From Pyrinomonadaceae bacterium (GTDB lineage: Bacteria > Acidobacteriota > Blastocatellia > Pyrinomonadales > Pyrinomonadaceae): a stretch of DNA of 64,000 nucleotides. This document shows, piece by piece, positions 17,468 to 34,147 of the stretch (its first letter is position 1; each line of letters begins with the position of its first letter). A model generated the notes under the pieces. The model had not been told where the DNA came from. It did no database searches and saw only the letters and a list, made by a program, of their open reading frames with translations. The stretch covers positions 1-64,000 of the forward strand of contig JAHCHG010000015.1 in NCBI GenBank assembly GCA_026129865.1. The letters run 5' to 3'. Made by a program: the position numbers and the translations under genes.

Positions 17468-17511
17468 ATTTGTTGAGTTTCTGGAAACAAGAAATAATTG
17501 AGAGAGAATAC

Positions 17512-17539
17512 GGCGGGTACACTCCAACCGCCCTTTTTT
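17512..17539 (+). terminator. Terminator after brnTA
   Basis: GGCGGGT pairs with ACCGCC, followed by six T residues. Confidence 0.75.
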
Positions 17540-17604
17540 GTAAGAAACCCCGCTTATTATTTTATAGTTTGCTATTCGTCAAATTCCGGCACACTAAAGA
17601 TACA

Positions 17605-18075
17605 ATGAAACGTTCTTTCATTTTGAAAATTTCACTTTTGACAATGACAATTTTGTCTCTTGGATGTAATCCAACAAACTTGCCGGTTTTTAAACAAGGA
17701 TCAGATCAAATAAGGGATTTGGGGACAAAAGAAACCGAAGAAGCGATCAAAACAGACCCCGAATTGGAACAACTAGACAATGTTTGCTCGAAAATTCCAT
17801 TTCTGAAGAGTTTTGAGATTATCAGTAAATCTATGTCCACCCACGGTCCACGTCAATTATTTTATTCCTACTACTCTGATATAAGTTTTGACGACTCAGA
17901 AAAGAGAATTAAGGAATATTTTTCAAATGACGGCTGGGAGTTTGTTAAATACCCCTCATTCAATAGAACAAGTTCATTTTGAAAAGAAAATGTATTGGTT
18001 GTAATTCAATATGGCGGAATGGGAAAAACTGTCAATTATGCAGTAACATGTGAAATGTTACCCTTTTCCGAATAA
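17605..18075 (+). pseudogene. Lipoprotein gene interrupted by in-frame TGA
   Basis: The frame begins MKRSFILKISLLTMTILSLGC, a lipoprotein signal with lipobox LSLGC. It runs 125 codons to TGA at 17980-17982. Without a frame change it continues for 30 codons (KENVLVVIQYGGMGKTVNYA) to TAA at 18073-18075. The continuation has coding character and completes the expected beta-strand and helix pattern, so the TGA looks like a nonsense change in a 157-codon gene. Family not recognised. No selenocysteine element was seen. The first part alone could still be made as a truncated lipoprotein. Confidence 0.65.
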
Positions 18076-18165
18076 ATAAAATGCCGATGACGATAATTGT
18101 TTGACGCAGAAAATTTTGACATAGTGAATTCTTTGTCGTACTCTGAGAGTCAGGAGGTGATAGAT

Positions 18166-18213
18166 ATGAAAGAAACTTCAGTCGAAACACCGCCGGATAA
18201 GTCGAGCCGGTAA
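18166..18213 (+). CDS. 15-residue peptide ORF with perfect Shine-Dalgarno
   Basis: ATG at 18166 follows AGGAGGTGAT, complementary over ten bases to the usual 16S 3' end, with good spacing. It encodes MKETSVETPPDKSSR and stops with TAA. A second tiny frame (MPATQIRRCNNSG) starts immediately at 18214, so re-initiation is possible. The ribosome site is much stronger than at neighbouring genes, which argues that it is translated. Function unknown. Confidence 0.4.
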   Translation: MKETSVETPPDKSSR

Positions 18214-18388
18214 ATGCCGGCAACGCAAATTCGGAGATGTAATAATAGCGGATAACGCGAATAGTTAAGTAGCTTGAAAAACATAGAAAATGGCGGTGGA
18301 ATAAAGCCAAAAGCTCATTCCGGCAATTTCAGTTAAAGCGAAAAAAGCGAACTCGCCGGCATCCGGAAACAATTTATATTAAAAAGAC

Positions 18389-18419
18389 GGGCGATTCGAG
18401 GAACGGATCGCCCTTTTTT
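18389..18419 (+). terminator. Strong terminator of the small transcript
   Basis: GGGCGAT (18389-18395) pairs with ATCGCCC (18407-18413), followed by six T residues. Confidence 0.88.
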
Positions 18420-18466
18420 GTCGGAGTTGCGAACCGGTTCCCCGGCAGACTAGAACGCAGAGCGCG

Positions 18467-18976
18467 ATGAACAAAAAACTGCTTAAAAAGCGAAAACAAA
18501 AGCTTCGGGAGAAACTGCACAAGCGGCTTGTCGGCTATCACGTTTACCGGTCGGAAGATGAATCGCTCCCGTTCGAGGAATGGACGAGAATTACCGATCA
18601 GCCGATCGCTGAAGGAAAATTCGACGATCCGGCGGGCGAAACGGGCAAAAGATATTTTTACAAACTTACGCAAGTTTTCGACAGCGGTGAAGAATCCGCG
18701 CCGCGAACACCGAAAAGCAGTTTTACGGATCACGCCGGAAATCGGTTTGACCAAAATCCTTTAAAGGATTTCGCCGGCTACAATGTCTATCGTTCCGCCG
18801 AACGCGATGTCCCGCTCGACAAGTGGGAAAAGCGAAATTCCGCGCCTTTACCGGACACGCAGTTCAAAGATGAAGGTGTGAGATCCGGCGAAGTTTATTT
18901 TTACTTTGTAAGAGCGGTTGATTCCGACGGGGTTGAAAGCGCGCCGGGCGAGGTCATTCGCGTCATTCGAAAATAG
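18467..18976 (+). CDS. Protein of two FN3-like repeats
   Basis: A very basic N-terminus (MNKKLLKKRKQKLREKLHKR) precedes two tandem fibronectin type III-like modules, residues about 22-90 and 103-168. Each starts GYxVYRS and ends with a YFYxL(V)xxxDSxGxES strand pair. There is no signal peptide, which is unusual for FN3 modules, so the protein may be cytoplasmic or exported by an unrecognised route. Function unknown. It follows the small terminator-bounded transcript. Confidence 0.7.
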   Translation: MNKKLLKKRKQKLREKLHKRLVGYHVYRSEDESLPFEEWTRITDQPIAEGKFDDPAGETGKRYFYKLTQVFDSGEESAPRTPKSSFTDHAGNRFDQNPLKDFAGYNVYRSAERDVPLDKWEKRNSAPLPDTQFKDEGVRSGEVYFYFVRAVDSDGVESAPGEVIRVIRK

Positions 18977-18987
18977 GATCTAGCCAA

Positions 18988-19323
18988 ATGTGTACAACTT
19001 TTGCGTTGGAAACATTCCGCGCACCAATTCTTTTTCAAAAGTCTGCAAATTCGGAAAAGGACTTGAAGCAAGAACCTGAAAAAACGGGCTTAGGCAGGAT
19101 CCGCTGCCCTAAATGCGCCTGGAACCCGAAGAAAGAAAGCCGCTGGTATTGTATGCCCGCAGGTCCGCCGGAATTTTTCCTGAACGGTTGCGGAGCAGTT
19201 TGGAATACTTTCGAAACGGGCGGAAGATGTCCGGGCTGTGGTCATCAATGGCGCTGGACAACGTGCTTGAGCTGCGGAAAAGACTCGCTTCACAAAGACT
19301 GGTATCCGGAAATTCCGAATTAA
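18988..19323 (+). CDS. Small zinc-ribbon protein
   Basis: A cysteine-pair protein with IRCPKCAWNPKKESRW, a second pair in CGAVWNTFETGGRCPGCGHQW and a third in TCLSCGKDSLHKDWY. This layout is typical of a small widespread bacterial family of unknown function. At least two zinc sites are likely. The true start is uncertain; no ribosome site is seen before MCTTFALET, and the conserved part begins near residue 36. Confidence 0.7.
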   Translation: MCTTFALETFRAPILFQKSANSEKDLKQEPEKTGLGRIRCPKCAWNPKKESRWYCMPAGPPEFFLNGCGAVWNTFETGGRCPGCGHQWRWTTCLSCGKDSLHKDWYPEIPN

Positions 19324-19429
19324 TGAGCGGCTGCGGACGGTAAAGAAATCAACGGATCGAGGTTGCCTACTAGTTAGAATTCTTTCTGCGTTCGCTACTT
19401 GCCCTGAACTTGGTCAAAAGATTGCGAAA

Positions 19430-19459
19430 TTGCGAAGGACGGGCATAAACAAGTACAAT
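19430..19459 (+). promoter_or_regulatory. Putative promoter of the Bax inhibitor-1 gene
   Basis: TTGCGA (19430-19435), 18 bp, TACAAT (19454-19459), about 50 nt upstream of the ATG. Confidence 0.45.
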
Positions 19460-19510
19460 TTCAGCATCATAAAGTTTAAGAAATTAATTATTTCTCTAGG
19501 AGTAAATTAG

Positions 19511-20227
19511 ATGAATTCAGATACAACGTACTCAAATACCTTTGGAAATTACGCGGCAAACGCCCTTCCCGCAGAACGCGCGTCGTTCATCCGCAAAACT
19601 TATGCTCATCTTGCACTCGCGATCTTGGTTTTCGGGGTATTGGTTTCCTACCTTGTTACCACGGGTGCCGGGCTCTGGATCGCGCAGACGATGACCGGCG
19701 GAATGAGCTGGCTGATCGTTTTGGCTCTCTTTATGGGAGTTTCATGGATCGCTCAAAGCTGGGCGCGCTCGAGCACGTCCAAACCTTTACAGTATATGGG
19801 GCTTACGCTGTTTACCGTTGCGGAATCCATTATATTTTTGCCGCTTTTGTTTGTCGCAGCGGCGAGTTCCGACGGGTTGACGACGATATTTCAGGCGGGC
19901 ATTGTTACGCTCGGACTGTTTGCCGGACTGACTTCGGTTGTGTTCTTAACACAGAAAGATTTCTCATTCCTGGGACCGATCTTGATGATCGGCGGTTTCG
20001 TCGCACTCGGATTTATAGCATCCGGAATTTTGTTCGGGTTCGGACTCGGCAGCATTTTTGCTTTCATCATGGTCGGATTCGCCGGCGCTGCGATTCTATA
20101 CGAGACATCGAATATGCTTCATCATTACAGAACCGATCAGCATGTTGCCGCATCGCTCGGATTGTTCGCCAGTGTAGCATTGCTTTTCTGGTACATTCTG
20201 CAGATCTTTATGGGCGGTGATGATTAA
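19511..20227 (+). CDS. Bax inhibitor-1 / YccA family membrane protein
   Basis: Multi-pass inner-membrane protein of the BI-1 (TMBIM) family with seven predicted helices over residues about 30-235. Members act as pH-sensitive calcium leak channels or interact with FtsH in bacteria. The family features RKTYAHLA near the start and a C-terminal GFAGAAILYETSNMLHHY are present. AGGAG lies upstream of the ATG. It is monocistronic, with its own promoter and terminator. Confidence 0.93.
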   Translation: MNSDTTYSNTFGNYAANALPAERASFIRKTYAHLALAILVFGVLVSYLVTTGAGLWIAQTMTGGMSWLIVLALFMGVSWIAQSWARSSTSKPLQYMGLTLFTVAESIIFLPLLFVAAASSDGLTTIFQAGIVTLGLFAGLTSVVFLTQKDFSFLGPILMIGGFVALGFIASGILFGFGLGSIFAFIMVGFAGAAILYETSNMLHHYRTDQHVAASLGLFASVALLFWYILQIFMGGDD

Positions 20228-20253
20228 ATTCTAACTGCTCTGTTCTTCGAAGA

Positions 20254-20281
20254 AGCGGCTGTTTCGACAGCCGCTTTTTTT
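20254..20281 (+). terminator. Terminator after the BI-1 gene
   Basis: AGCGGCTG/CAGCCGCT stem with a TTTCGA loop and a T7 tract. Confidence 0.9.
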
Positions 20282-20319
20282 GTGTGAAAACGGACGAATG
20301 ATGGGCTCAAAAAAAAGTG

Positions 20320-20348
20320 TTGACATTAAATTTAATAGAGCCTATGTT
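20320..20348 (+). promoter_or_regulatory. Promoter of the M43 metalloprotease gene
   Basis: TTGACA (20320-20325), 17 bp, TATGTT (20343-20348), leaving a leader of about 75 nt before the ATG at 20431. Confidence 0.6.
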
Positions 20349-20430
20349 AATGACTCAGTTTGCGGTTTTAAATCCCAGTTCATAAAGCCCGTTTTCCTAT
20401 TTTAAAAAAGCAAAAGGAGATTACCGACAG

Positions 20431-21366
20431 ATGAAAAAGTTAGGTATTTTCGCGGCAGTGACGTTTGTCTTTGCTGCACTACTGGTGTTTGGCGGAAGCA
20501 TTTTTAGGACCGAGGCGCAGAAAAGCGCAGTTGAGGAAACTCCTGAATTTAAGGATGTTGTCGTTTCAAAATCGGAAAGATTTTGTGCAACGGATCACGA
20601 TCCCGAAAAGATCGCCCTGATGGAAGCCGATTTCGCTGTAAAAAAACAGGAACTGCAAAATTCCTTTGGCGATAACATTTCAGGCGGCACGATAAACGTT
20701 TATTTCCACGTTATCCGAAAGGGTACGGGCGTTTCGAACGGCGATGTTACGACGCAGATGATCAATGATCAGATGAGTGTTTTAAATTCTGCTTTCGGCG
20801 GATGGGGATGGAACTTCAATCTTGTAACCGTTACCCGCACAACAAATTCGACCTGGTACAACGGCTGCTACGGTTCGAGCGAAACCGCTATGAAATCGGC
20901 TCTTCGGCAGGGTTCCGCAGACGATCTGAACATTTACACCTGCAATCCTTCGGGCGGAATTCTGGGATATGCAACCTTTCCGTCGAGCTACAATTCGAAC
21001 CCGAGCAAGGACGGCGTAGTTTTGTTATACAGTTCGCTTCCCGGCGGTTCTGCATCGCCCTATAATCTGGGAGATACGGGAACTCATGAGGTCGGACATT
21101 GGATGGGACTTTACCATACATTTCAGGGGGGATGCGCGAGAAGTGCAACAAACGGCGGCGACTATGTAGCTGATACACCGGCTGAAAAATCCCCGGCTTA
21201 CGGCTGTCCTTCCGGCAGAAATACATGCACCGGAAGTAGGTTCCCCGGCAACGATCCGATAGAAAATTTCATGGATTATTCGGATGATTACTGTATGTTC
21301 AAATTCACAGGCGGGCAGGATTCACGAATGGATTCACAATTTACAGCATATCGCTACAACAAATAG
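20431..21366 (+). CDS. Secreted M43-family (pappalysin-like) zinc metalloprotease
   Basis: Exported metzincin. The signal peptide covers about residues 1-29. The zinc site HEVGHWMGLYH (residues 219-229) gives the HExxHxxGxxH pattern, and the downstream NFMDYSDDYC supplies the Met-turn typical of M43B. The conserved DTPAE region lies between them. It probably degrades extracellular protein. It has its own promoter and terminator. A paired-cysteine content suggests a periplasmic or extracellular fold. Confidence 0.93.
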   Translation: MKKLGIFAAVTFVFAALLVFGGSIFRTEAQKSAVEETPEFKDVVVSKSERFCATDHDPEKIALMEADFAVKKQELQNSFGDNISGGTINVYFHVIRKGTGVSNGDVTTQMINDQMSVLNSAFGGWGWNFNLVTVTRTTNSTWYNGCYGSSETAMKSALRQGSADDLNIYTCNPSGGILGYATFPSSYNSNPSKDGVVLLYSSLPGGSASPYNLGDTGTHEVGHWMGLYHTFQGGCARSATNGGDYVADTPAEKSPAYGCPSGRNTCTGSRFPGNDPIENFMDYSDDYCMFKFTGGQDSRMDSQFTAYRYNK

Positions 21367-21384
21367 ATCGGTTCTTTGATCAAA

Positions 21385-21419
21385 AACTGCGCGGAGTTTC
21401 GGTTCCGCGCAGTTTTTTT
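21385..21419 (+). terminator. Terminator after the M43 protease
   Basis: AACTGCGCGGA pairs with TCCGCGCAGTT, followed by seven T residues. The convergent xseB gene ends at 21422, so it may act both ways. Confidence 0.9.
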
Positions 21420-21421
21420 GC

Positions 21422-21727
21422 CTAAAAAAGATCTTCGTCCTCTTCTTCGAAGACAACCCGCTTTTTTATTTTCGGCTGATTCCCGGCGATCAGATCGTCC
21501 GCTTCGATCTCCTCTAAACCGGGCTCGCCATCTGCGTCCTTCAGCAAGATCTCGATCCTGCGTTCCGCCTGAGTCAGGCGCTTTTTACATTCGCCTGTAA
21601 GTTTTACTCCTTTTTCAAATAGATCGAGGCTTTCTTCTAAACTAAGTTCGCCGTCTTCGAGCAGGTTTACGATCTTTTCCAGTTCGTCGAGCGAAGCTTC
21701 AAATGTTTTATTCGTTTTACTTTTCAT
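21422..21727 (-). CDS. xseB: Exodeoxyribonuclease VII small subunit
   Basis: Small subunit of exonuclease VII, which degrades single-stranded DNA to oligonucleotides; several copies coat each XseA. The core [32 protein letters not shown] is typical. At 101 residues it is longer than usual because of an acidic C-terminal tail ([11 protein letters not shown]). It is the last gene of the five-gene operon, one base after the preceding stop, separated from xseA by a membrane-protein gene. Confidence 0.95.
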
Positions 21728-21728
21728 A

Positions 21729-22505
21729 TTATCGGAAAATACTTTCAGCCTGTTTCAAAAGGTCCTTTACATTGTCGACGCCGAGATTTTTCCCCGCTTC
21801 GCGAATTTCTTCCGGTCGATCCTTCCCGGCGATCGCTATTATTTCCTGACCGACGCGTTCCGCAACCCGCTGCGCCAGCGCTTCATCTTCAACACCGACT
21901 ACACGCCATTTCGCGTCTGTCCGTTCCATGGTCAATTTCACAGGACGTTCCAGTGACAAACTCGATATAACTGCGGAATCGCCGGTTTGTTCGATCTTAA
22001 GATAGCGACCTGCGCCGATCACTATCGCCCAGAACGGGATCCTGTCAAAAGCCTGCGTTTTCTCGCGAATCAGTCCGGGAAGTTCGGCTTTCGCGCGATC
22101 TTTAACCGCCGGCATTATCGGAACGACTACTTTCGAAACCGCGCGGATCTTTTCCGCCGGCATGCCGCGACCGTAAAGTTCGATGGCTTTCTCGGTTATC
22201 TGCGGAAGAAAATCTTCAACGACCGCGTCGGTGTCGACCAGCTCCGCTATCCGCTGTTCGTCATTAGTCCGCGCCGCCTGAACTAATTCGGCTAACGCAT
22301 ATTGCGGCGAGTCTTTGTAATAGTTCCACGCCAAAAAAGCGGAAACCGCCGCGACGACGAGCAAAATTCCCAGGATCGATCCAAATATCTTTAGCACCTT
22401 TCCCCGGCGCCCCGGCGCCGCTCGCTCTTGGTGAGCAGCAAAAATGGGAGTTTCCGTACGTTTTGCTGCTTCACTTTGGTCGATGTCGATCTTGATCCTT
22501 TCCAT
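21729..22505 (-). CDS. Membrane-anchored protein, DUF2939-like
   Basis: A cytoplasmic N-terminus, one membrane segment at about residues 40-64 ([20 protein letters not shown]), then a soluble exported domain. The stretch [20 protein letters not shown] and the following acidic helices resemble the DUF2939 family. Function unknown. It sits between xseA and xseB with gaps of 9 and 1 nt, so it is cotranscribed. Whether it belongs functionally with exonuclease VII is unknown. Confidence 0.75.
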
Positions 22506-22514
22506 GTGCCCGGT

Positions 22515-23900
22515 TTAATTCTCCGTTTCCAAAACTTCCGCTTTGATCTTGCCTTTTGACAGCACGATCTCTAGATTATCGCCCGTTTTTACGCTGGCGG
22601 CATTTCTCAAAATAGCGCCGCTGCTCTTTGCGATCGAATAGCCGCGACTTAATACCGCAAGCGGTGAAAGCGATTCCAAACGAGCTGTCGAGATCAGCAT
22701 TTCTTCGTCCTTTCTTTTCACCCGTTTTCGAATCGCCGCCGTTTGTTTCTCAGAAAGAACGGCAAGCAGTGTTTTTTGTCCCGAAATGTTCGCCGCAAGG
22801 CGGACGGGTGAAATGCGATTCCGCAATAGATCGAGCCGTTGCTTTTTTTGTGTCAGTACTTCATCAATTCCCTGACCGATCCGGATCTGAAATTCATCGA
22901 CATCGGAATAAAGATCGGAAATGCGTCGCGGAAACTGAACGAATCCCGGAGAATTTTCAAGCTGCTGCAGACGCGACCCAAGGGAAAAGACCTTGAAGCC
23001 GAGCGAGCGGACAAAAGATTTCTGGCAGCGGATAATAAATTCTGCAATGCTGTCTTCCGATTCTGCAACGATCTCAGCCGCGGCGCTAGGCGTCGGCGCG
23101 CGCATGTCGGCGACCAGGTCGGCGATCGTAAAATCGATCTCGTGTCCGACCGCTGAAATTACAGGAATCTCTGAATCGAAAATCGCTCGCGCGACTATTT
23201 CTTCGTTAAACGCCCATAGATCTTCCGCCGAACCGCCGCCGCGACCGACGATCAAAACGTCGAGTCTTTCGTTGTCGTCCGCCGATCGATTATGACGATT
23301 TGCAAGTTGAACGGCGGCAGCTATCTCCTCGCCGGCAAATTCGCCCTGAACGCGAGTCGGAATCAATGTAACCGTTACAGAACGCGTTCGGCGCGAAATG
23401 ACGTTTAAGATATCGTGAAACGCAGCACCGTTCGGGCTCGAGACAACTCCGACGCGGCGCGGCAAAAACGGCAGTTCGCGCTTGTGCCCGGCGTCAAAAA
23501 GTCCTTCCGATTCCAATTTAGATTTAATTTGTTCATACGCGACGCGAAGTGCGCCTTCGCCGACGGGTTGGAGCGATTCGACCAGAATCTGATAATCTCC
23601 GCGCGGAGCGTACAGAGTGATTTTGCCTCGAACTTGGACCTGCAGCCCGTCAAACGGCTTAAATTTGATCCTCATGTTATTGCGGACATAACACGCCGCA
23701 CGAATCTGCGAATCGCCGTCGGAAAGCGTGAAATACCAATGTCCCGACGCGGCAGACTTAAAATTAACGATCTCGCCTTCGATCCAAACCGATGAAAAAC
23801 GCCGTTCCAGCTCGGCTTTAACCTGATCGTTCAATTCCGATATAGAAAGCGGACGGCGCTCTTCTTCATCGAAGAGTGAGTTTAGCAAGGAAGATTTCAT
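22515..23900 (-). CDS. xseA: Exodeoxyribonuclease VII large subunit
   Basis: Catalytic subunit of exonuclease VII. The 461-residue protein has the N-terminal OB fold (VWIEGEIVNFKSAASGHWYFTL), the catalytic domain with GVVSSPNGAAFHDIL, LIVGRGGGSAEDLWAFN and ISAVGHEIDFTIADLVADMRAPTPSAAAE, and a C-terminal coiled region. Its ATG follows the stop of the VWA/nuclease gene directly (TAAATG), which implies translational coupling. The position downstream of a nuclease-like fusion is unusual. Confidence 0.97.
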   Translation of the reverse strand: MKSSLLNSLFDEEERRPLSISELNDQVKAELERRFSSVWIEGEIVNFKSAASGHWYFTLSDGDSQIRAACYVRNNMRIKFKPFDGLQVQVRGKITLYAPRGDYQILVESLQPVGEGALRVAYEQIKSKLESEGLFDAGHKRELPFLPRRVGVVSSPNGAAFHDILNVISRRTRSVTVTLIPTRVQGEFAGEEIAAAVQLANRHNRSADDNERLDVLIVGRGGGSAEDLWAFNEEIVARAIFDSEIPVISAVGHEIDFTIADLVADMRAPTPSAAAEIVAESEDSIAEFIIRCQKSFVRSLGFKVFSLGSRLQQLENSPGFVQFPRRISDLYSDVDEFQIRIGQGIDEVLTQKKQRLDLLRNRISPVRLAANISGQKTLLAVLSEKQTAAIRKRVKRKDEEMLISTARLESLSPLAVLSRGYSIAKSSGAILRNAASVKTGDNLEIVLSKGKIKAEVLETEN

Positions 23901-26870
23901 TTATTTCGCAGTTGCTCCGTGCTCGAGGATGATCGTAAAGTTGTTTTCCTGCGCTTCCTTGAACAATGTTTTCAGAAATGCCTTTTGTTTCAGGTCGATC
24001 GCATTTGCTGTGCAAAATTTATCAAATGCTTCCGCATCGGCGTCGGACCGGATCGTGCCGGACAATTTCGCCGACGTCAGGCGAATCTGCACTTTATGTT
24101 CACGCGGCTCGATGCCAAGTTTGACGTTTTGCAGATTTGTGTAAAGCATCACTTTCAGCAATCCATCTTTTATGTCGTTCTCGCTCGGAAATTTCGATCG
24201 CTGACTATGTTTTGCTTCGATCAAATAAATTACGCCGCCGTCAATCAATGTTTCATCGACCGTAAAAAAATACTTTCCGAATAGCGCGTTCGTGATAGTA
24301 ACTCTGCGCTTAGAATCCGACGATAAAGCTTCTTTAGGCTGAAAGGTTTGCGATTCTCGGTTCTGAGCTTTTTGCGATTTTCCACGGGAAAATTCGATAA
24401 ACTTTTCGGGAGTTTCCGCCATTTTTATCAACTCGTCCAGCGCGTCTTCGTCGTGTAGATAGGTTTGAGTTTTCTTCGAAACTTCTCGATACGCGATTTT
24501 TGCTTTTTCCAGCACCGGTTTTAAGTTTTTCACTTCCCGTTCATTCCATTCCCGCGCCGTTCCGTTAAAGCTGAAAACCTCATTCAAACGCGACAAAACA
24601 TAAGTTTCGTCCAATTTTTGCGAAGTTATCTTGTCAGATTTTTTTGTATTTTTTACCGCGTCGTCGTAATAAGCTAAGACGACGTGAACATCCAGAAGAC
24701 TCAAAAGCGAGATCGTATCCCACTGCAGAAAATCGCGGTCGCCGCCCAATCCTTCATCCTTAACCACCGGAATAACCGCAACTTTTCTGCCGGCGAATGC
24801 GATCGTGTCATAGACGCGTTCGTATGGATACGACCGTGTTCGTTTCGGCGATATCCAACGGCTGACGGCGATCTTCTCATTGCCGTTGTTTAGCAGAAAT
24901 GCGCCGGGAGAACTGTTCACGTCAAAATTTTCGAGCTTGAAAGTTCGAAGATCGTCCGCCAGGAACGGCTTATAGTTTATTCTTTCAACCTCGCCGGAGA
25001 TCTCAGCGGAGCCCGATTTTGCGTCGTCAGAAAATCGATCGGGCGAAGGCTCCGTCGAGTGTGAGGTCAACGGACGATATGCAGCTGAGCCAAAGATCAA
25101 AGGTGCAGCGAAAATTTTCGACGGCTTTGCATCTGAAGATCCGTCCGGAACGTCGACGACCGAACCGAGCTTTACAAACGCATTTTCGCGCTTTACGCGA
25201 ACTTTAAGAAACGGCGACGGACTTCCCTTTGTAACCGGGAGATCGGAACGATATGTGACCGAATAAGCGGTTCGAAGCTGAATGACAATATCATCGTAAG
25301 CCTTTTGCAGCTCGTCCAATTGCCTGATCGGGTAATAAACACCGCCCGAGATTTTCGCCAGCCGTTCGCCTTCCGATTCGGCTTTTGAACTCAATCCGAA
25401 ATATCGCGCACGCAGCGGATCGATCGTCTCTTTCGGGTCCTGATTTTTCGTTGCGGCGATCAAACCATTCGGGACATAGAGCGGATAGATCAATGCCCCG
25501 CTTTCTTCTATCGCGCCGACCAGAGCGTTAAAAGGCAAAAACGATCGTGTGTCTTCGCCGTCGGAAAGCACTACAATGCCGGTCCGATCGCCTTTCAGCG
25601 GTCGCAAAGTTTCCGCTAAAACATAACCGAGCGCGTCGTAATAAGCCGTGCCGCCGCCTGCGTCAAACGTGTCCAGGCTTTCGGAAAGAAGCCGTTTGTC
25701 CTTCGTAAAATTAGACAAAACCTCGATATCGTCGTTGAAAATTATTATCGCGACCCTGTCGTTTTCATTAACGGTATTAACAAAATTGCGAGCGGCTTTT
25801 CTGATGAAATTGACGTAATTATCGACACTTCCCGACACATCAACGAGAAGCACAAGATTGAACGACGTCGTTTCCGGTTCGACCGAAACTATTTCGCGCT
25901 CTTCGCCGCGTTCGGTCAGGATAAAATCGCCTTCTTTCAAACCCGAGATCGCACGATTGCCGGAATCCGTAACCTGAACGAGAACTTTCTTTATCGACGA
26001 ATTTCCGTTGCTGCTTGATGAATTTTTCGGCGTCAGAACCGGCGCGCTTCGAAACGGCGGAAGAGTACTCGCATAATCGCTGAAATGCTTTGGCGCTGCG
26101 CGGCGAATCGCGTCCATCAGAATTGAATCGCCGCTTTTGATTATCGCCTGAGCGGCTTTTGTGAGCGGCTTTTCGCCGAGATCCGACGGAACGGAGGACG
26201 GATCGACATTCAATAAAATAATGCCGCGCGAAGTCGTAAAATCGATCTCGACCTTTTTTTCTATTCCCGACTCCGCGTCAGACTCCGCAGAAACCGGTTT
26301 TCGAACCCCACTTTTTCGAACGTCGGCACCATCAATGATCTTTCCGCTTACAACGAACTTGCCGGCAGCTTTTTCCTTAACTTCATCAAGATCGACATCG
26401 CTCAAAAAACGCGGTCGCGACGAAGTCCAAACGAAATTATATTTGAGTTCTGTAAGCGGCAGGTCGGCAGCGATCGTTCCGGTTGCAGTTTTAACTTCGA
26501 CAGATTCGTAATTTCCAGCTACCCGAACCTCGCCGCTGTCGGTCGTAAGTTTAACTCGTAAACGTTCGGGAACAACTAAATTCAGATCGATCCGTTTGTC
26601 CCGTGAAGAAGAAGGTTCGACCTTGATCTCGAGCCGCGAGCCGCGAAATTCGGCAACCACTTCGCGCTCTGCCGCTCGTGCAGCCTTTAGAAAAATTCGT
26701 TCGGCATTTTCATCGGTTTCGATTGAAATTCGACCGTAAAAATTTTCAATATTAAGACGCGTGTCTTTTCCGGCGGCAAAGTCCGTTTCATAATCCTGCG
26801 CCTGCGCGGCGATGGAAAAACCGAGCAGAACAAGCACTAAAATTAAGGTGAAACGATAGATGTTCTTCAT
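23901..26870 (-). CDS. Exported VWA protein fused to a restriction-type PD-(D/E)XK nuclease-like domain
   Basis: Numbering is from a GTG at 26933, which overlaps the kinase stop. I prefer the ATG at residue 22 because it gives a clean signal peptide (MKNIYRFTLILVLVLLGFSI). Then follow a DUF4097-like beta region (about 48-160), a VWA domain (about 315-560) with MIDAS DVSGS at 365-369, and a linker. Residues about 650-1010 resemble a type II restriction endonuclease: SRWISPKRTRSYPYERVYDT, GGDRDFLQWDTISL, and a catalytic pattern of Asp898 with Glu906-Ala-Lys908 in LIEAKHS. No internal start is visible at the junction. An exported nuclease fusion is unexpected; role unknown. Confidence 0.8.
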   Translation of the reverse strand: MKNIYRFTLILVLVLLGFSIAAQAQDYETDFAAGKDTRLNIENFYGRISIETDENAERIFLKAARAAEREVVAEFRGSRLEIKVEPSSSRDKRIDLNLVVPERLRVKLTTDSGEVRVAGNYESVEVKTATGTIAADLPLTELKYNFVWTSSRPRFLSDVDLDEVKEKAAGKFVVSGKIIDGADVRKSGVRKPVSAESDAESGIEKKVEIDFTTSRGIILLNVDPSSVPSDLGEKPLTKAAQAIIKSGDSILMDAIRRAAPKHFSDYASTLPPFRSAPVLTPKNSSSSNGNSSIKKVLVQVTDSGNRAISGLKEGDFILTERGEEREIVSVEPETTSFNLVLLVDVSGSVDNYVNFIRKAARNFVNTVNENDRVAIIIFNDDIEVLSNFTKDKRLLSESLDTFDAGGGTAYYDALGYVLAETLRPLKGDRTGIVVLSDGEDTRSFLPFNALVGAIEESGALIYPLYVPNGLIAATKNQDPKETIDPLRARYFGLSSKAESEGERLAKISGGVYYPIRQLDELQKAYDDIVIQLRTAYSVTYRSDLPVTKGSPSPFLKVRVKRENAFVKLGSVVDVPDGSSDAKPSKIFAAPLIFGSAAYRPLTSHSTEPSPDRFSDDAKSGSAEISGEVERINYKPFLADDLRTFKLENFDVNSSPGAFLLNNGNEKIAVSRWISPKRTRSYPYERVYDTIAFAGRKVAVIPVVKDEGLGGDRDFLQWDTISLLSLLDVHVVLAYYDDAVKNTKKSDKITSQKLDETYVLSRLNEVFSFNGTAREWNEREVKNLKPVLEKAKIAYREVSKKTQTYLHDEDALDELIKMAETPEKFIEFSRGKSQKAQNRESQTFQPKEALSSDSKRRVTITNALFGKYFFTVDETLIDGGVIYLIEAKHSQRSKFPSENDIKDGLLKVMLYTNLQNVKLGIEPREHKVQIRLTSAKLSGTIRSDADAEAFDKFCTANAIDLKQKAFLKTLFKEAQENNFTIILEHGATAK

Positions 26871-26925
26871 CGAAAAATTGAAAAGACTTTGAGTAAGATC
26901 GCACCGGCGAGGTTCGCCGCGTTTA

Positions 26926-29106
26926 TTATCCACTGAGTATTTTCTTTCCGGTTGACGTCCGCCCGGACTGCATTAAGCGCTCGCGCACGCGGGCTTGCCA
27001 GTTCGTTTTCGGGCATTCGTCCTCTTCAAAACGAGACAATAGTTCCAGCATCGATTCGCCGCCCGCCTGACGGGTTTTGAAATAAAGCAGCGCGGTTATG
27101 ACCGATGAGAACGAAACGATAATGACCGAGATCGGTATCCAAAGAAGTTCGTAAAGTCCTTGTTGAACAGAGTTTCGAAGCTTTCTTGCCATCGACTCGT
27201 CTGTTTTACTATCCTTTGTTTCGAAATTGAATCCTTTACCGTCTATCCGAAAGTTAACGTCCTCAGCGTCCGCGGTCGAGCCGTTTGTCGAATTTTCCGT
27301 CGCGGTTGTGTTCCGAACCGGCGGCGGATCGAACGTGTTCATGATCCCGTTGAGCGAAAGCGCGATTACTATCGCCAGAAACGATGGGACGACATAAACC
27401 AGGATCGCCGTCGCCAAAACGGTTCTGAATGAGCGCTTTGCGAGTTCCATCGAACGCTTGAAAGCAGCGCGACCCGATACGTTTTCCATGACGATCGACG
27501 GCGCGATAAGCATAAATTTCGCCGACAGCCAGACGCCCGGGATCAGGCAGAATGCCAACCCGACGATCGATATCAGCGTGCTGAGCGTAACAGTTCCGAA
27601 CAGCGGTTTCCACCTTCGCCCGACCTGGCGAAACGAAGCGCGGATGCTGATCGGTCTAAGCGGCGCCGCGAGGACTTGCGCGACTATCCAAGTTGACATT
27701 CCAACAAGCAATGCCGCCGCAAATATCTGCGTGAAAAACTGTAAAAAGGAAAAAACTCCGGTCGTAATGCCGAGCAGCCATGGTCCGGAAACGACTTCGA
27801 TCGCCGCGAGAAATCTGAATGTAACCCCGCCCATTGTCAAAACAGCCGACGGAATTCCGATTAGAATAGCGATCCACAAAAACTTCGTTATATGCTCGCT
27901 GTAAATGACCAGGGCGCGGCGTAAAAGCGTTCCCAGACCTTCGCTATTGGCGCGGAGTTCGCTCGCAAATCCTTCCGCGGTCTGCGGTCGTTTGTCCGTT
28001 TCCTTTGCGAGTGCAGAGTGAATTACCTGCTTAACTTTCTTTGGTACTTTTTTCGCGCTCAGCGTCGGCGGCTCCGTCGATTTATGAGCTTCCATTACCG
28101 CCGAATAATCGCCGGAAAACGGCGTATCGCCCGAAAGCATTTGATAGGCGATCACCCCGAGTGAATAAATATCCGACTGCGGCGTCAATTTATCGCCGCG
28201 GCACTGTTCCGGCGACATATAAAGCGGCGTTCCGAGAACGGCGCCGACGCGCGTTAACTCGGCGGAAGAAAGTTCGGAACTCGTGCGCGCAAGCGATCTG
28301 ACGCCCGCCCCTCCGGTATCGATCAGCTTTGTTTCATCGTCTTCCAGCGATCCTTCTTTGGTAGCTTCATTGCCGTCATTATTCTTTATGCTTTCAGCGA
28401 TCGTTCCGCTGCCGAGCTCCGTGGGCGAGTACGCCATCGTCGCACCGTCACCTTTTTGAGTTGAGCTGCTGTCAAAAACGGCTGTCCCGGACCCTTCACT
28501 ATCGGCAATCGTTTCTCCGCCGCCGATAAGCATTGTTTCCGCATTGTTATCGATCACAAATCCGGCGCGTTCGCTGATAGAAATTGTCGATTCTTCGAGT
28601 TTGGCAATTCCGAAGTCGAGCACTTTTACGGTGTAACCGCCGCGCTGATTGGGTTCGAGCCAGATGTTGTCGGGTTTAAGGTCGCGGTGGATGATTCCTT
28701 GATCATGCGCTTCGCTGACCGCGGAACAGACCTGTTCAAGAATATCGACCGTCCACGAAAGTGGAAGCCGCTTTTCCTCGGAAAGTATCTCGCCGAGCGT
28801 ACATCCGTCGAGATATTCCATGACAAGATAAGCGACTTCGCCGTCGGGAGAGTCGGAAAAACCGAAATCCGTAACATCGACGACATTCGGATGACGGAGC
28901 CGACCGGCAGCCCGAGCCTCGCGCCGGAAGCGCTCGACAAATTCGGCGCGTTTCATAAACTCGGGCGCGATAACTTTAACAGCGACGGGACGTTCCGTGC
29001 CGACATGGGTCGCCAGATACACCGTTCCCATTCCGCCTTTTCCAAGCAGCTTTTCGATGCGGTATTTATCGTCGAGCGTGTGTCCGATCACGCGTATGTT
29101 TGGCAT
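26926..29106 (-). CDS. Ser/Thr protein kinase with inserted activation loop and C-terminal membrane domain
   Basis: PknB-type kinase. The glycine loop GKGGMG is at 21-26, the VAVK lysine is Lys44, the catalytic HRDLKPDN is at 140-147, DFG at 164-166 and GTPLYMSPE at 292-300. About 125 residues separate DFG from the P+1 loop, roughly 100 more than usual, and they are rich in Ser, Thr, Glu and Gly. Several membrane helices follow in residues about 400-680. First gene of the operon with the VWA/nuclease protein and exonuclease VII, whose proteins are possible substrates (inference). Confidence 0.93.
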   Translation of the reverse strand: MPNIRVIGHTLDDKYRIEKLLGKGGMGTVYLATHVGTERPVAVKVIAPEFMKRAEFVERFRREARAAGRLRHPNVVDVTDFGFSDSPDGEVAYLVMEYLDGCTLGEILSEEKRLPLSWTVDILEQVCSAVSEAHDQGIIHRDLKPDNIWLEPNQRGGYTVKVLDFGIAKLEESTISISERAGFVIDNNAETMLIGGGETIADSEGSGTAVFDSSSTQKGDGATMAYSPTELGSGTIAESIKNNDGNEATKEGSLEDDETKLIDTGGAGVRSLARTSSELSSAELTRVGAVLGTPLYMSPEQCRGDKLTPQSDIYSLGVIAYQMLSGDTPFSGDYSAVMEAHKSTEPPTLSAKKVPKKVKQVIHSALAKETDKRPQTAEGFASELRANSEGLGTLLRRALVIYSEHITKFLWIAILIGIPSAVLTMGGVTFRFLAAIEVVSGPWLLGITTGVFSFLQFFTQIFAAALLVGMSTWIVAQVLAAPLRPISIRASFRQVGRRWKPLFGTVTLSTLISIVGLAFCLIPGVWLSAKFMLIAPSIVMENVSGRAAFKRSMELAKRSFRTVLATAILVYVVPSFLAIVIALSLNGIMNTFDPPPVRNTTATENSTNGSTADAEDVNFRIDGKGFNFETKDSKTDESMARKLRNSVQQGLYELLWIPISVIIVSFSSVITALLYFKTRQAGGESMLELLSRFEEDECPKTNWQARVRERLMQSGRTSTGKKILSG

Positions 29107-29274
29107 TTTCCGATGTTTTTAAAATCCTTTTCCGGTTGAAGATCGATACGATGAAAGACGCCGGCAGGTTTTCCCTAAAATATTAGGGAGGCTCGCATAT
29201 GCAAGCGTACAGAATTCGTATTGTTGGATTATAGTGGAAAAGGTTTGCGAGAGAAAACGGCGCACAGTTCGGGT

Positions 29275-30273
29275 TTACTGTTTCTTAATGATAATTTTAC
29301 CTGTGACCGTCTTGAAATTCAGCAGCGCATCGCCGTCGCCGAGCGTTGCCGACAAACTTCCGAGCTTTGAGTTCGGTTCGCGCACAAGATCTTTCATCGG
29401 AATTTCCGAGTCGAAACTTCCATAACCGTACACCGCAACGATCTTGCTGGATGAGTTTTCCGGAAGAATAAGCGTTATCAAACTGTTCGCCGATCCAAAA
29501 TAATATTGTCCGCCTTTAAGCAGTTCTCCGGCAAAATTGATCGATCCGGAATTAGAATTGACCTCGGTTTCGCGATAACGAACTTTTTGCAGTGTTATCG
29601 CGCCGCTGCTTGTTTTCGCATTGAACGAATCGCCGATAGCTTCGGATGAAGCGTCGTAAGCAACGATGTTTCCGTTCGTGGTTTCGAGCGTCATCGAGCC
29701 GCCGGAATTTTTTACGGTGACATTTCCGCGGTAAGTTCTGGCTTCAATTCCTGTAGAAATATTATTTAAGAAAATATCTCCGCCGACATTTTTAACCGAT
29801 ACTTTTGCGACCGAATCGATCGAAGTCTTACTTTCTCCGCTCTTGATATTTACCGTCGCTCCGAAAGGAACATCAAGTTCAATTACGTTGCCGGCGACAC
29901 ATTCGTCGCTTTTATTCTTTAGAGCAACGGAAGGATCGTAACCCAGGATCTTCACCCAAACCGGATGATCATCGGACTTACTTTTCTCAAGGACGCTGAA
30001 ACCCACCGCAGTTCCGCCGCTGACGAACGCGCGGATCTCATTGCGGTTCCAGCCGTTTATCTTGATATAACCTTCGCGAACGCAGACGGAAATATTAACC
30101 TTGTCGCTGACAGCAATAGCTTTTTCCGAAAACCCGTTAAAATTTTCAACCGCTTCACAATTAAAATCTTCCGGCGCTTTAGAACGGTCACCCGCGAAAA
30201 CCGGGAAACTTGAAGCGATCAGGCTCAAAGAAATGATTAAAAATAGATTTTGAAGGAATTTGTTTTTATTCAT
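29275..30273 (-). CDS. DUF4097-family secreted beta-repeat protein
   Basis: Exported protein with a signal peptide (to about residue 28) followed by repeated short beta strands of the DUF4097 or adhesin-like type, such as VKNVGGDIFLNNISTGIEAR, GNVTVKNSGGSMTLETTNG and TSSGAITLQKV. Starts at ATG 30273, one codon inside a TTG. Third gene after the ECF sigma and anti-sigma genes (32-nt gap). DUF4097 proteins often sit in such operons and may take part in envelope sensing, but the mechanism is unknown. Confidence 0.85.
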   Translation of the reverse strand: MNKNKFLQNLFLIISLSLIASSFPVFAGDRSKAPEDFNCEAVENFNGFSEKAIAVSDKVNISVCVREGYIKINGWNRNEIRAFVSGGTAVGFSVLEKSKSDDHPVWVKILGYDPSVALKNKSDECVAGNVIELDVPFGATVNIKSGESKTSIDSVAKVSVKNVGGDIFLNNISTGIEARTYRGNVTVKNSGGSMTLETTNGNIVAYDASSEAIGDSFNAKTSSGAITLQKVRYRETEVNSNSGSINFAGELLKGGQYYFGSANSLITLILPENSSSKIVAVYGYGSFDSEIPMKDLVREPNSKLGSLSATLGDGDALLNFKTVTGKIIIKKQ

Positions 30274-30305
30274 CAACGAATAGATTAAACCAATTATTTT
30301 TCGAT

Positions 30306-31193
30306 CTAATTGAGGCTTGCCATCAGCTCGCTCTTTTCCGCAAGCGAATTCAGTAGATCGATCTTGTTCTGATACGACGTTTTAAGCAAAACGCGCGCCG
30401 CTTCGTTCTGCGGATTACTGCGCACCTCGTCGCGAAGTTTTTTGATCGTTTCATCAGCAACCGCAAGATCTTTTTCAAACGAAAAACGCGCAGAAGAATT
30501 CATCATAACGTCTTTTTGATTCCCGACAGAACTTTCAAGCGTCGCGATCGTCTTCAGATAAGTGTCTTCGGAAACAAGCGTTTCCGAATAATAAGCCGTA
30601 TCCGCTTCTTTGCTTTTTATTCGCTGCGGAACCGGTCGCCGAGCCGTTTCCGGCTCAACATAGACAGTTCGGCGCGCGGTAAACTTTTCTTCCGCCGGCG
30701 GCTGTGTTTCGATCACCTCGTTCTCGTTTGCCGCGCTTTCACGCAGCGAAACCGATTCGGGCTCTGCCGTTTTAACGAGAGTTCGCGATTGTTCCGGTTG
30801 ATTAACATTGCTGACTGCAGCGCGCTGAACATTGGAACCGCTGCGAACGCCGTACAGACCTATAAACAGCCCGAAAACAATAACTAAGCTCGCAAAACCG
30901 ATCGCTGACGGACTCATCAAAAACGCGGTCAACGAATGCCAGATCGACTGTTTCCTGGCTTGTTCTTCTATCGAGCCGTTGATCTTTGACCAGAGTCTCT
31001 GCGTCGGCACCAATGAATCGAACTCGCGGTCGAGTGCCGAATATGCAAATTCCAGCTCTTCTTCCGCGTTCGCGACCGCAACCGCGCAGTCGTCGCAAAT
31101 TGAAATGTGACGAGTTACATTTTCCGCCAGATCATGCGGCAGTTCACCGTCTAAGAACGACTGGATAATTCCTTCGTCAAAACATTTATTCAT
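30306..31193 (-). CDS. Zinc-finger anti-sigma factor
   Basis: Membrane-anchored inhibitor of the adjacent ECF sigma factor. The start at MNKCFDEGIIQSFLDGEL, with GGAGCAGG just upstream, begins the anti-sigma domain, whose zinc motif is HISICDDC (HxxxCxxC). A single membrane segment (about residues 88-113, ending LIVFGLFIGLYG-like) leads to a long periplasmic part. That part ends in a helical, possibly coiled-coil segment. The gene overlaps the sigma gene by 8 nt, typical of coupled sigma/anti-sigma pairs. Confidence 0.9.
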   Translation of the reverse strand: MNKCFDEGIIQSFLDGELPHDLAENVTRHISICDDCAVAVANAEEELEFAYSALDREFDSLVPTQRLWSKINGSIEEQARKQSIWHSLTAFLMSPSAIGFASLVIVFGLFIGLYGVRSGSNVQRAAVSNVNQPEQSRTLVKTAEPESVSLRESAANENEVIETQPPAEEKFTARRTVYVEPETARRPVPQRIKSKEADTAYYSETLVSEDTYLKTIATLESSVGNQKDVMMNSSARFSFEKDLAVADETIKKLRDEVRSNPQNEAARVLLKTSYQNKIDLLNSLAEKSELMASLN

Positions 31194-31755
31194 TTCCTGC
31201 TCCGTTATAATACCTGACAAATTCTTTTCTAGCCCGCGCGACAAAGGTTCCGATGCTTGATTCATTTAATGAAAGACTTTCGGCGATCTCTTTGTACGTC
31301 AGCCCCTGTTTTTTCAAAACCAGGCAGCTGCGCAGCGGTTCTTTGATCTTTTCCAATGCCCGGTGAATTTCCTTCACCTGCTCACGCTGTTCATAATCGA
31401 CTTCGACCGACGAGACCGCGTTTTCTTCTACTTCTTTGACGTAATTTTCCTCGCGCGTGTTCGCCCTGACGTTTGTCCGAATCGTATTTTTCGCAACATT
31501 TATCGTGACACGGATGAGCCACGGTCGAAGCATTTCTTCAGACGTTATCGAGCTCATGTTGTTGTAAAGCCGGAGAAAAACCTCCTGCGTCACATCTTCC
31601 GCCAATCCCGAATCGTGGACGACCGACCGCGCGACGCGAAAAACCGTCCGGTGGTGAAGCGTGAACGCTTCATCAAATACAATATGTTCTTTCGCCGCCG
31701 TTGCTGTTCCGATTTGGGACATTGCGTCCATTAAAATTTTTACGCTTTCGCTCAT
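31186..31755 (-). CDS. ECF-type RNA polymerase sigma factor
   Basis: Sigma70-family extracytoplasmic-function factor. Region 2 includes FRVARSVVHDSGLAEDVTQE and LRPWLIRVTINVAKN; region 4 includes LRSCLVLKKQGLTYKEIAES and the recognition helix ESSIGTFVARARKEF. Length 189 residues, normal. It leads the sigma, anti-sigma, DUF4097 operon. Such factors usually activate their own promoter; the region upstream contains a 53-nt inverted repeat (31828-31880) worth testing. Confidence 0.95.
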   Translation of the reverse strand: MSESVKILMDAMSQIGTATAAKEHIVFDEAFTLHHRTVFRVARSVVHDSGLAEDVTQEVFLRLYNNMSSITSEEMLRPWLIRVTINVAKNTIRTNVRANTREENYVKEVEENAVSSVEVDYEQREQVKEIHRALEKIKEPLRSCLVLKKQGLTYKEIAESLSLNESSIGTFVARARKEFVRYYNGAGNE

Positions 31756-31827
31756 TAATCAGCACTTAAACTGCCTTTCAACCGTATAACACCGCGCGGC
31801 GGAAAATTGTGACAGAGAATTTAATTG

Positions 31828-31880
31828 ATTCTCGCGTATTAGGATATTCCCGAATGCTGATTATTCGAATAGGCGAGAAT
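31828..31880. repeat. Inverted repeat upstream of the ECF sigma gene
   Basis: ATTCTCGCGTATT (31828-31840) and AATAGGCGAGAAT (31868-31880) are reverse complements in 12 of 13 positions with a 27-nt spacer. It lies 73 nt upstream of the sigma ATG, between it and the IS-like element. It could be an operator, a hairpin or part of the IS edge. Otherwise the 31756-32023 region shows no gene. Confidence 0.5.
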
Positions 31881-32106
31881 TGTTTTATTCCTTTAACTTC
31901 AAAATAAAAAAGCGCGGCAAAGCAGTTCGTCGTGCAGGTAACAATTCTGTCTTTGATTATAACGTCAACCGCAACGGGTGAAGTTTCATAAAATAATTAT
32001 TCCTTTCATGACGACTTAGATTCAGCCGCTTTCAAGCGGCTTTCCGCGCTTCGCGGCAATTAACCACGCTATTTATGGCGTGGTCAGCGGTTCGGAACGG
32101 ATTCTC

Positions 32107-32122
32107 AGGGCGTTTTAACGTC
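32107..32122. repeat. 16-bp inverted repeat, left copy
   Basis: AGGGCGTTTTAACGTC; exact reverse complement of 32577-32592. The two copies bracket the transposase frame. Confidence 0.85.
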
Positions 32123-32135
32123 CTTTTATTCCGCT

Positions 32136-32557
32136 TTAGCTTTCATCTTCGCTCCTTTCCAAACGCTCGTAAGTCGTGCCTTTTTTGTGATGTTCTTTTT
32201 GGTTCAAAACGTAATTTATCACCCATTGTAAATCCTTTGTCCCAAAGCTGACGATTCCATAACCGCGCTGCCATTGCAGCAATTTATGATTCGCCGTTTG
32301 ATTGATGTGATACGAACTTCCGCCTTTCAACTTTCCGACGAAATCGCTCACGAGCAAATTCGGCGGAACGCTGATCGCCAGATGAACGTGATTTTCGATG
32401 CCGCCGACTGCGTGGAAATAAACGTCGGGCGTTTCGATGATTTTGTGTTTCAAAAACCGTAAAGTTTCGTTTCCATTTCAGGTTTGATCAAAGGCAAATT
32501 CGATTTCGTATGCCAAACGATGTGAAAATTTATTTCCGAATATACTCTTTCCGACAT
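32136..32557 (-). pseudogene. IS200-family (Y1) transposase, frameshifted
   Basis: The HUH/Y1 transposase is split over two frames. The N-terminal part (MSERVYSEINFHIVWHTKSN to ETKLYGF) meets TGA. The C-terminal part begins LKHKIIETPDVYFHAVGG in another frame and carries the HUH motif NHVHLAIS and the region with QWVINYVLNQKEHH, where the catalytic Tyr is YVLNQ. One missing base in the A5/T5 run at 32452-32456 explains the break. The two parts together give a normal length of about 140 residues. It may be dead, or the run may be miscalled. Confidence 0.8.
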
Positions 32558-32576
32558 TTTTCGAGCCTTGTGAAAA

Positions 32577-32592
32577 GACGTTAAAACGCCCT
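32577..32592. repeat. 16-bp inverted repeat, right copy
   Basis: GACGTTAAAACGCCCT; partner of 32107-32122. Confidence 0.85.
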
Positions 32593-32710
32593 AATTTATT
32601 TAATAATCACCAGACCACGCGCTAAAGTCGCGTGGCTAAATGCCGCTTCGCGGGTAATCTGATAAATCAGGCTAAAAATCATTTCATTTCAAATCCCCTT
32701 TTCCCAATCA

Positions 32711-34147
32711 CTAAAAATTCACGATCTTCGCGCTGTGTATCAAACCGACCGGAAGGTCATCGGCTTTTTCTGCGGTAATGAAAAACGTGTAACTGTTCTC
32801 TTTTTCGCTGAAGATCGATTCGAGATCTTCGATAGATAATTGACGTATTTTCGAGTCCGGCTGCGCGAGAGCAAGTCGTTTCAGGCATTCATGAAGGTGT
32901 TCTCTGCCAATGCCGAATTCGCCGATCTCTTCGCCGACGATCAAACGAATTTCCGCCTGTTGCTCCGTGAAATTTCCCAAAAGACTCGCAGTCATACTTA
33001 CGCCGTTCTCAAATCTTTCCGAAATCAGCGCGCTTTTGTCGCCTTTTTGTTCTGCTTCCAGCTTTTCGCGAAGGCTCAGCGGCTCTACTTCGCCTTCTAC
33101 TTGAAACCGCGGGTCAAAATAAACGGTAACGCGCGTATCGTCTTCCGCCGAAAATTCCCGGACGATGAGCCGCTGGACACGTGCGGTAGCCTTCCAATCG
33201 ACCCGACGAAGATCGTCCATCGGCTGATAATCGCGAAGTGCCAACAGATCCTGCCCAAGTCCTTTTTTGTTCGTTACGAGTTTTCCAACCTCGAGCGGCA
33301 GATCGATCGTTTCTTCGTCAAAATCAATTAATTTAGGAAAAATGACGATTTCAACTTTTTGAGCAGACAGCCGCCGCCGGTGCCGAAAAAAACCGAACGG
33401 AAATCGTGTGGAAAGTTCAAAATCTTTGATTATGAACCGCCCGCGGTCGGGAAAAACGTGTTCGACCCGATTTTCAGCCTCGCTTCGACGGGAAACTCGC
33501 ATAAAATAATCGAGCGTATGTTTTACGATCGGCGGCGAAGCGATGCGCTTTGCCCATTTTTCCGGAACGATCGCGAGGATCTCATCATACAGAACGGACT
33601 GTTCGCGTTCCTTGCCGCGAACCTCAGCGACGACTGAAAATGTGGGAAACACCAGTTTTCGGTTGATCAAACTGACGAGTATAGGCGTCGGTTCACCGGC
33701 AAAAACGGTATCCGGGAAGCGCATTTTTACATCGAGTTTTCGAAGACAAAGATTTCCTGCGAAAAAACTGACGATCAGCGCAGAGGCGAGAAACGAGAGA
33801 ATTAAGAACAGCAAATTGTTTCCGGTGTTCCAGGCGGCAAAACCGACGATAACCATCAATCCCAGGATCAGCGCGCCTCCGATCGTGAACTCGAACGGGA
33901 GATTCATCTGCGAAGCTTCGCGCTTAGCCGAACGAGCGAGCGGCGGGATCACAAAAACAAAGATCAATAAGACAAAAACGAGAGACGCGCCGGCGGCATA
34001 GGTCGCCATTTTCACATCGCCGGAATTCTGTGCCCAAATAGTAAAAAATGCGAGCCCGAGACCGCCCAGAACGACGGTCAACCCGAGGATCGCATTGCGA
34101 ATGTCTTTAAAACTAAAAAGCTGTAAAAAGGCGCGAAGTCTGTTCAT
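32711..34147 (-). CDS. DUF58-domain membrane protein
   Basis: Two membrane segments near the N-terminus (residues about 18-60) plus a second hydrophobic pair near 90-130, then the DUF58 region with the signature LRDYQPMDDLRRVDWKATAR. DUF58 proteins resemble VWA folds and are usually encoded beside MoxR ATPases, as here (71-nt gap). They are thought to act with MoxR in envelope or complex assembly. The start MNRLRAFL replaces a TTG three codons upstream. Confidence 0.92.
   Translation of the reverse strand: MNRLRAFLQLFSFKDIRNAILGLTVVLGGLGLAFFTIWAQNSGDVKMATYAAGASLVFVLLIFVFVIPPLARSAKREASQMNLPFEFTIGGALILGLMVIVGFAAWNTGNNLLFLILSFLASALIVSFFAGNLCLRKLDVKMRFPDTVFAGEPTPILVSLINRKLVFPTFSVVAEVRGKEREQSVLYDEILAIVPEKWAKRIASPPIVKHTLDYFMRVSRRSEAENRVEHVFPDRGRFIIKDFELSTRFPFGFFRHRRRLSAQKVEIVIFPKLIDFDEETIDLPLEVGKLVTNKKGLGQDLLALRDYQPMDDLRRVDWKATARVQRLIVREFSAEDDTRVTVYFDPRFQVEGEVEPLSLREKLEAEQKGDKSALISERFENGVSMTASLLGNFTEQQAEIRLIVGEEIGEFGIGREHLHECLKRLALAQPDSKIRQLSIEDLESIFSEKENSYTFFITAEKADDLPVGLIHSAKIVNF

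Follow-up and report, generated by a model that had tools for sequence, protein, structure and literature searches.

The window analyzed here, a 64,000-nucleotide stretch spanning positions 1 to 64,000 of contig JAHCHG010000015.1 from Pyrinomonadaceae bacterium GCA_026129865.1, carries a gene in which a VWA protein with a predicted signal peptide is joined to what by its sequence is a complete type II restriction endonuclease (REase), and the genome around it is almost devoid of the word GGCC. A first, sequence-only reading of this DNA had described one uninterrupted frame at the locus, and the frame is indeed open throughout, from an ATG at 26870 to the stop codon at 23901-23903 on the minus strand (989 aa). 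That reading counted residues from an upstream GTG (26933, 1010 aa), and its Glu906 and Lys908 are Glu885 and Lys887 in the numbering used here. The fused gene has the following parts, where R-M stands for restriction-modification:

23901..26870, minus strand: fused gene (signal peptide, beta-rich region, VWA domain, linker and type II REase; 989 aa)
26796..26870, minus strand: signal peptide MKNIYRFTLILVLVLLGFSIAAQAQ, residues 1-25, predicted from sequence (peak 12-residue Kyte-Doolittle value 3.17)
26433..26795, minus strand: run of short beta strands, residues 26-146 (AlphaFold2 pLDDT about 70-80 locally)
25185..25988, minus strand: VWA domain of the acidobacterial VWFA family, residues 295-562 (NCBIfam TIGR03436, 4.5e-32; Pfam VWA_2, 1.8e-14)
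25008..25160, minus strand: linker joining VWA and REase (residues 571-621), which varies among genomes
23904..25007, minus strand: predicted full-length type II REase domain (residues 622-989) that aligns co-linearly with stand-alone R-M REases, starting at their first codon
24255..24257, minus strand: catalytic-type Asp872, found in all 15 exported-clade REase copies that cover it and in all 6 R-M REases
24216..24218, minus strand: catalytic-type Glu885 of the ExK motif, kept in every copy covering the site
24210..24212, minus strand: catalytic-type Lys887 of the ExK motif, kept in every copy covering the site

Export of the fused protein is predicted from its signal peptide, which is found likewise in VWA orthologs. 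A DVSGS motif, the VWA domain and the blocks SRWISPKRTRSYPY and GGDRDFLQWDTISL had also been named in the sequence-only reading, and all of them are present; the VWA part scores 111.8 bits against TIGR03436, above the curated cutoff of 81.25, and is therefore a member of the acidobacterial VWFA family. The proposed DUF4097-like region has no significant match in Pfam (top match DUF2807, E = 0.045); AlphaFold2 models short strands at residues 27-146 with modest confidence, possibly of a toastrack/DUF4097-like type. The full-length model is poor (mean pLDDT 49), and the arrangement of the domains cannot be read from it.

The type II restriction enzyme character ascribed to the C-terminal third is borne out by a match of the last ca. 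368 residues to the PADLOC profile REase_II PDLC03572 (5.1e-71, profile positions 40-352 of 371), while sequence searches of Pfam, PHROG and the PDB found no match for this part, PDB searches by single sequence and by profile gave nothing meaningful, and no match was found in plasmids, phages and viral contigs. Across the REase alignment, Asp872, Glu873, Glu885 and Lys887 form the conserved set. The D...ExK pattern proposed earlier thus holds for its glutamate and lysine, whereas its aspartate (Asp898, our Asp877) is not conserved and Asp872 is found instead. The REase domain was modeled with a pLDDT of 82 and a pTM of 0.83, and model residues 217-362 (the C-terminal 145) have mostly PD-(D/E)XK nucleases as their top structural matches, at modest Z scores of 4-5.8 (NucS/EndoMS, SfsA, XisH, Card1, Can2, McrC, N.BspD6I and BsmI). 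Foldseek found no significant match to the REase model and none with E below 0.02. Judged by its sequence, the C-terminal part is a complete type II restriction endonuclease that would be expected to cleave DNA.

We surveyed 119 genomes of the soil-dwelling Pyrinomonadaceae for the clade of exported REases to which this domain belongs (REase_d, as opposed to the stand-alone R-M REases, REase_rm). REase_d occurs in 15 of the 119 genomes with 16 copies, always joined to or beside the VWA gene, though missing parts of metagenome-assembled genomes (MAGs) affect which ones are scored as carriers, and the genomes cannot count as independent samples. The gene order at carrier loci is kinase - VWA - REase - xseA, and both neighbors in the window are kept with or without the REase:

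22515..23900, minus strand: xseA, exonuclease VII large subunit, a neighbor also in relatives without the REase
26926..29106, minus strand: membrane Ser/Thr kinase gene, the upstream neighbor

We had suspected a functional link between xseA and the REase and dropped it given that xseA adjoins the VWA gene in REase-free relatives, too. VWA genes without a REase end differently, and 12 of these 17 are followed by xseA within 1.5 kb. At two carrier loci we note small irregularities, namely an additional, smaller VWA gene that encodes a signal peptide and lies between fusion and xseA in G026 (L014 5515-6405) and an xseA gene broken by a frameshift in G070 (L052 7087-8305), the latter through assembly error or decay.

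Three architectures retain the export signal. The in-frame fusion is found in nine genomes, that is, the window genome and eight others, and its recurrence is not a matter of chance. Several fusion linkers (L047-L050, L056) have a motif like APLREISFQK in common that is perhaps a translated old intergenic repeat. Elsewhere (G031, G070 and G071), REase_d stands apart from the VWA gene and encodes its own signal peptide. The third form is seen in G064, G075 and G076 (L046, L055 and L056), where a run of A8 or A9 directly precedes the VWA stop codon (GTG AAA AAA AAC TAA and similar) and the REase is open in the -1 frame from the A-run, with a single slip at A AAA AAC joining both. This run is a candidate site of programmed frameshifting or transcriptional slippage, a prediction made in MAGs; no usable separate start codon of the REase was seen in G064, and an RNA structure behind the slippery site is found in G075 only (z -2.5) and is absent in G064 and G076.

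The 16 REase_d copies form a single clade against six stand-alone R-M REases (99/99), whose genes adjoin a D12-class methyltransferase. REase_d can be aligned to R-M REases from their first codon, which indicates that the entire enzyme was captured, and 66 of the 109 columns that are invariant in R-M REases are invariant in REase_d as well. Sequence comparison thus shows REase_d to be derived from an R-M REase, and relatives preserve the intermediate stages. REase_d, REase_rm and the D12 methyltransferase stand in tandem between VWA and xseA in G064, and the same arrangement is spread over two contigs in G076. Between fusion and xseA of G068 lies a fossil that joins the first 30 REase_rm codons to the second half of the methyltransferase (E = 9e-53 for the latter); weaker remains are a methyltransferase tail in G018 (E = 0.03) and perhaps a REase_rm start in G069. 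A homolog of the D12 methyltransferase was searched for in the window genome and not found.

Both halves of the fusion are under purifying selection. In codon models, REase_d has an omega of 0.174, compared with 0.143 in the VWA region and 0.067 in R-M REases, with little difference between fused (0.18) and non-fused (0.16) REase_d copies, and fixing omega at 1 for REase_d is worse by 774 lnL units. Together with the invariant positions that were kept, these low values argue that the REase is maintained and not decaying. A recent accidental fusion, one of the options raised at the outset, is therefore rejected, given the spread over several genera, the purifying selection and the retained catalytic residues. 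Likewise, an assembly join or the chance fusion of two unrelated genes has a negligible probability in our view: relatives with the VWA gene alone do exist and speak for it, but the same type of junction recurs in nine independently assembled genomes with both halves under purifying selection, and the related genomes have already refuted the join.

The word GGCC was counted in these genomes because Nostoc plasmids encode relatives of the R-M methyltransferase next to HaeIII-family REases and because the REase family also matches in Sulfolobus acidocaldarius, whose sole R-M system is SuaI with the target GGCC (PMC5809426). The count for the window is:

1..64000, no strand: GGCC absent across the window (0 seen versus about 180 expected)

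GGCC is the only one of the 256 4-mers to be absent from the 64-kb window, and another 757 kb taken at both ends of the contigs of this genome contain 2 copies versus 2,198 expected, one of them inside the 16S rRNA gene (L166 19987, contig C18 end). For whole genomes, we used as proxies RRGGCCYY, controlled by the reversed word (CCGG), and the broader pattern GGCCN{0,30}AA. GGCC is purged genome-wide in all carriers: RRGGCCYY occurs 0-9 times per genome in 15/15 carriers versus 90-1,432 times for the reversed control and, with the exception of G007 (9), 58-1,874 times in the 101 non-carriers, and its pooled ratio to the CCGG control is 0.003 in carriers versus 0.60 in those 101 genomes. The broader pattern has 30 forward matches in the 4.4 Mb of the window genome and 8 in the 5.0 Mb of G064, compared to 8,654 to 40,851 in three non-carriers. 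The same contrast is visible within genera, separating G075 and G076 from G015 and G074 in genus g16 and G064 from six others in genus g17; on the VWA tree, the carrier label requires five changes, which makes shared descent alone a poor explanation of the GGCC loss. Three further genomes (G005, G072 and G023) are also purged, and the VWA-REase locus is not assembled in them. As side observations, one remaining GGCC of G064 lies in 23S rRNA (L129), and the loci of several carriers (e.g., G022, G071 and G066a) are poor in CATG, GTAC or GATC as well, inconsistently so. One contig of the window genome (C14, L143; 1,750 bases) consists of N throughout, being masked or withheld.

Based on the purge and the methyltransferase pairing, the enzyme is probably GGCC-specific. 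The loss of one 4-mer across whole genomes implies sequence specificity and thereby speaks against a secreted toxin or nutrient-scavenging nuclease that cuts without it, which we regard as improbable. Exported toxins with a REase fold are known (Tox-REase families, PMC3482391), but no immunity gene was seen beside the fusion, whose neighbors are the same kinase and xseA genes as in REase-free relatives, and a complete R-M REase was kept down to the 66 shared invariant columns. Among the roles considered in the sequence-only reading, a defense or DNA-barrier function is thus favored over a classical secreted toxin, given the missing immunity gene and the GGCC-purged chromosomes of carriers.

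We give about even credence to the explanation that the protein is an exported, probably GGCC-specific REase against which the cell is protected by the absence of sites and by compartment, not by methylation. A type II R-M system (REase and D12-class methyltransferase, probably directed at GGCC) would have entered the gap between xseA and the gene of a secreted VWA protein; one REase copy would then have joined the VWA protein or acquired its own signal peptide and become exported, often followed by loss of the methyltransferase and the cytoplasmic REase. The VWA part may hold the enzyme at the envelope or outside, where it would cut foreign double-stranded DNA at GGCC, be it phage, plasmid, transforming or environmental DNA, and the DNA of the cell and its kin would be spared with a chromosome that is nearly GGCC-free and separated by a membrane, making methylation unneeded. 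That the enzyme cuts at GGCC, resides at the envelope or outside the cell and acts against DNA is inferred. Slightly short of even is our confidence that this amounts to restriction without methylation, with a VWA-anchored exported REase hitting foreign GGCC and with self and kin recognized by a genome nearly devoid of the word; we hold with the same reserve that this near-absence extends over a chromosome of 4-6 Mb and evolved through domestication of an R-M system whose methyltransferase was discarded.

Several observations weigh against this explanation. Its weak link is that an enzyme acting only outside the cell would not be expected to drive GGCC out of the chromosome that encodes it, and the simpler version in which compartment alone spares the chromosome was dropped in view of the purge. 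Access to own DNA (through a precursor or leakage) or an older cytoplasmic R-M pressure must therefore be added; candidates are residual activity of the precursor in the cytoplasm, an earlier cytoplasmic R-M pair and the cutting of DNA exchanged among kin. Since the window genome keeps an intact GGCC within its 16S rRNA gene, one chromosomal site is tolerated; a single site is thus not lethal, which favors low cytoplasmic activity. Besides, the window genome encodes further methyltransferases of unassigned specificity, namely one of C5 type, a distant D12 enzyme and six of N6/N4 type, and positions 770-774 and 862, invariant in R-M REases, are altered in the exported clade, whose specificity could have shifted. 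Finally, G007 is purged (9 versus 318 for the control) with an ordinary VWA gene (L091) and no REase_d there; this genome may hold a different GGCC enzyme.

Two further explanations were weighed. The purge could be the scar of a long-resident, later lost cytoplasmic GGCC R-M system with the exported REase as a by-product, an unlikely but serious contender. The tandem R-M genes of G064 (and G076) and the fossils of G068 and probably of G018 and G069 agree with it, as does a report that sites can remain avoided after an R-M system is lost (Rusinov 2015, PMC4687349). Genomes that have only the R-M system (G147, 106/1455; G364, 72/629) are strongly depleted too, yet they are not emptied, and the window genome, G026, G136, G066 and G067 are near zero with no R-M system at the locus. 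After loss of such a system, mutation would re-form sites, and the purge follows the exported copy in 15/15 carriers. Alternatively, through incomplete export or early folding of the precursor, the fused protein may be an active solitary REase inside the cell that is tolerated by a site-free chromosome. That GGCC was purged at all implies contact between enzyme and chromosome, and PacI provides a precedent (Ershova 2012, PMC3488263), but we consider this rather unlikely given that three architectures have each kept or regained a signal peptide and that a GGCC persists in the 16S gene. Internal starts that could yield a cytoplasmic REase also seem scarce: the ancestral start codon is gone, no ATG lies near the old start in fused genes, most of the few GTG or TTG codons there lack a Shine-Dalgarno-like sequence, and in some carriers no start codon lies in frame nearby.

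Solitary restriction enzymes are a standing puzzle, as they would be expected to kill their host. If export and specificity are as predicted, the locus offers two answers at once: the enzyme is exported, and nearly all of its targets have been deleted from the genome. Living relatives preserve the stages of conversion as tandem R-M genes, fossils, fusion, predicted slippage and a separate signal peptide. A chromosome essentially free of a 4-bp word is also a natural setting in which to study self/non-self discrimination, kin-selective DNA uptake and the imprint of restriction on genomes.

No exported, secreted or periplasmic restriction enzyme was found reported in the literature searched, which left most subscription journals outside its scope, and a paper that lists reasons for solitary REases is silent on signal peptides, the periplasm and secretion (Ershova 2012, PMC3488263). 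Avoidance of orthodox type II sites by the host is common and grows with the lifespan of the system, and it is sometimes the trace of a lost one (Rusinov 2015, PMC4687349), while near-exclusion (below 0.1) is described as less frequent among prokaryotes than among non-temperate phages (PMC6286503). An orthodox type II R-M system (PDLC03572 REase with D12 methyltransferase, GGCC suspected; compare HaeIII and SuaI) shares with the locus the REase family, co-linear over its full length, and the catalytic residues, and the ancestral pair still stands in tandem in relatives. The enzyme described here differs in being, as its predicted signal peptide suggests, exported rather than cytoplasmic, in its fusion to VWA, in lacking a cognate methyltransferase and in residing in an almost GGCC-free genome. 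Acidobacterial VWFA proteins (TIGR03436) are exported VWA proteins, as this one is predicted to be, though the family model has no nuclease part. Tox-REase domains of polymorphic toxins (PMC3482391), which have a REase fold, likewise sit at the C-terminus of exported proteins, but they are toxin domains with immunity proteins, whereas here a complete R-M REase is found and no immunity gene is seen. PacI resembles our case as a REase without methyltransferase in a host genome that lacks its sites (Ershova 2012, PMC3488263), provided that GGCC is the site here; its target is 8 bp long, whereas here about 12,000 expected 4-bp sites are missing and the enzyme would be exported, a state common to 15 genomes. 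The closest example of discrimination by place is SNIPE (PMC13190303), which also cuts DNA at the cell boundary and tells self from non-self by location, but does so without an R-M origin and without a purge of sites.
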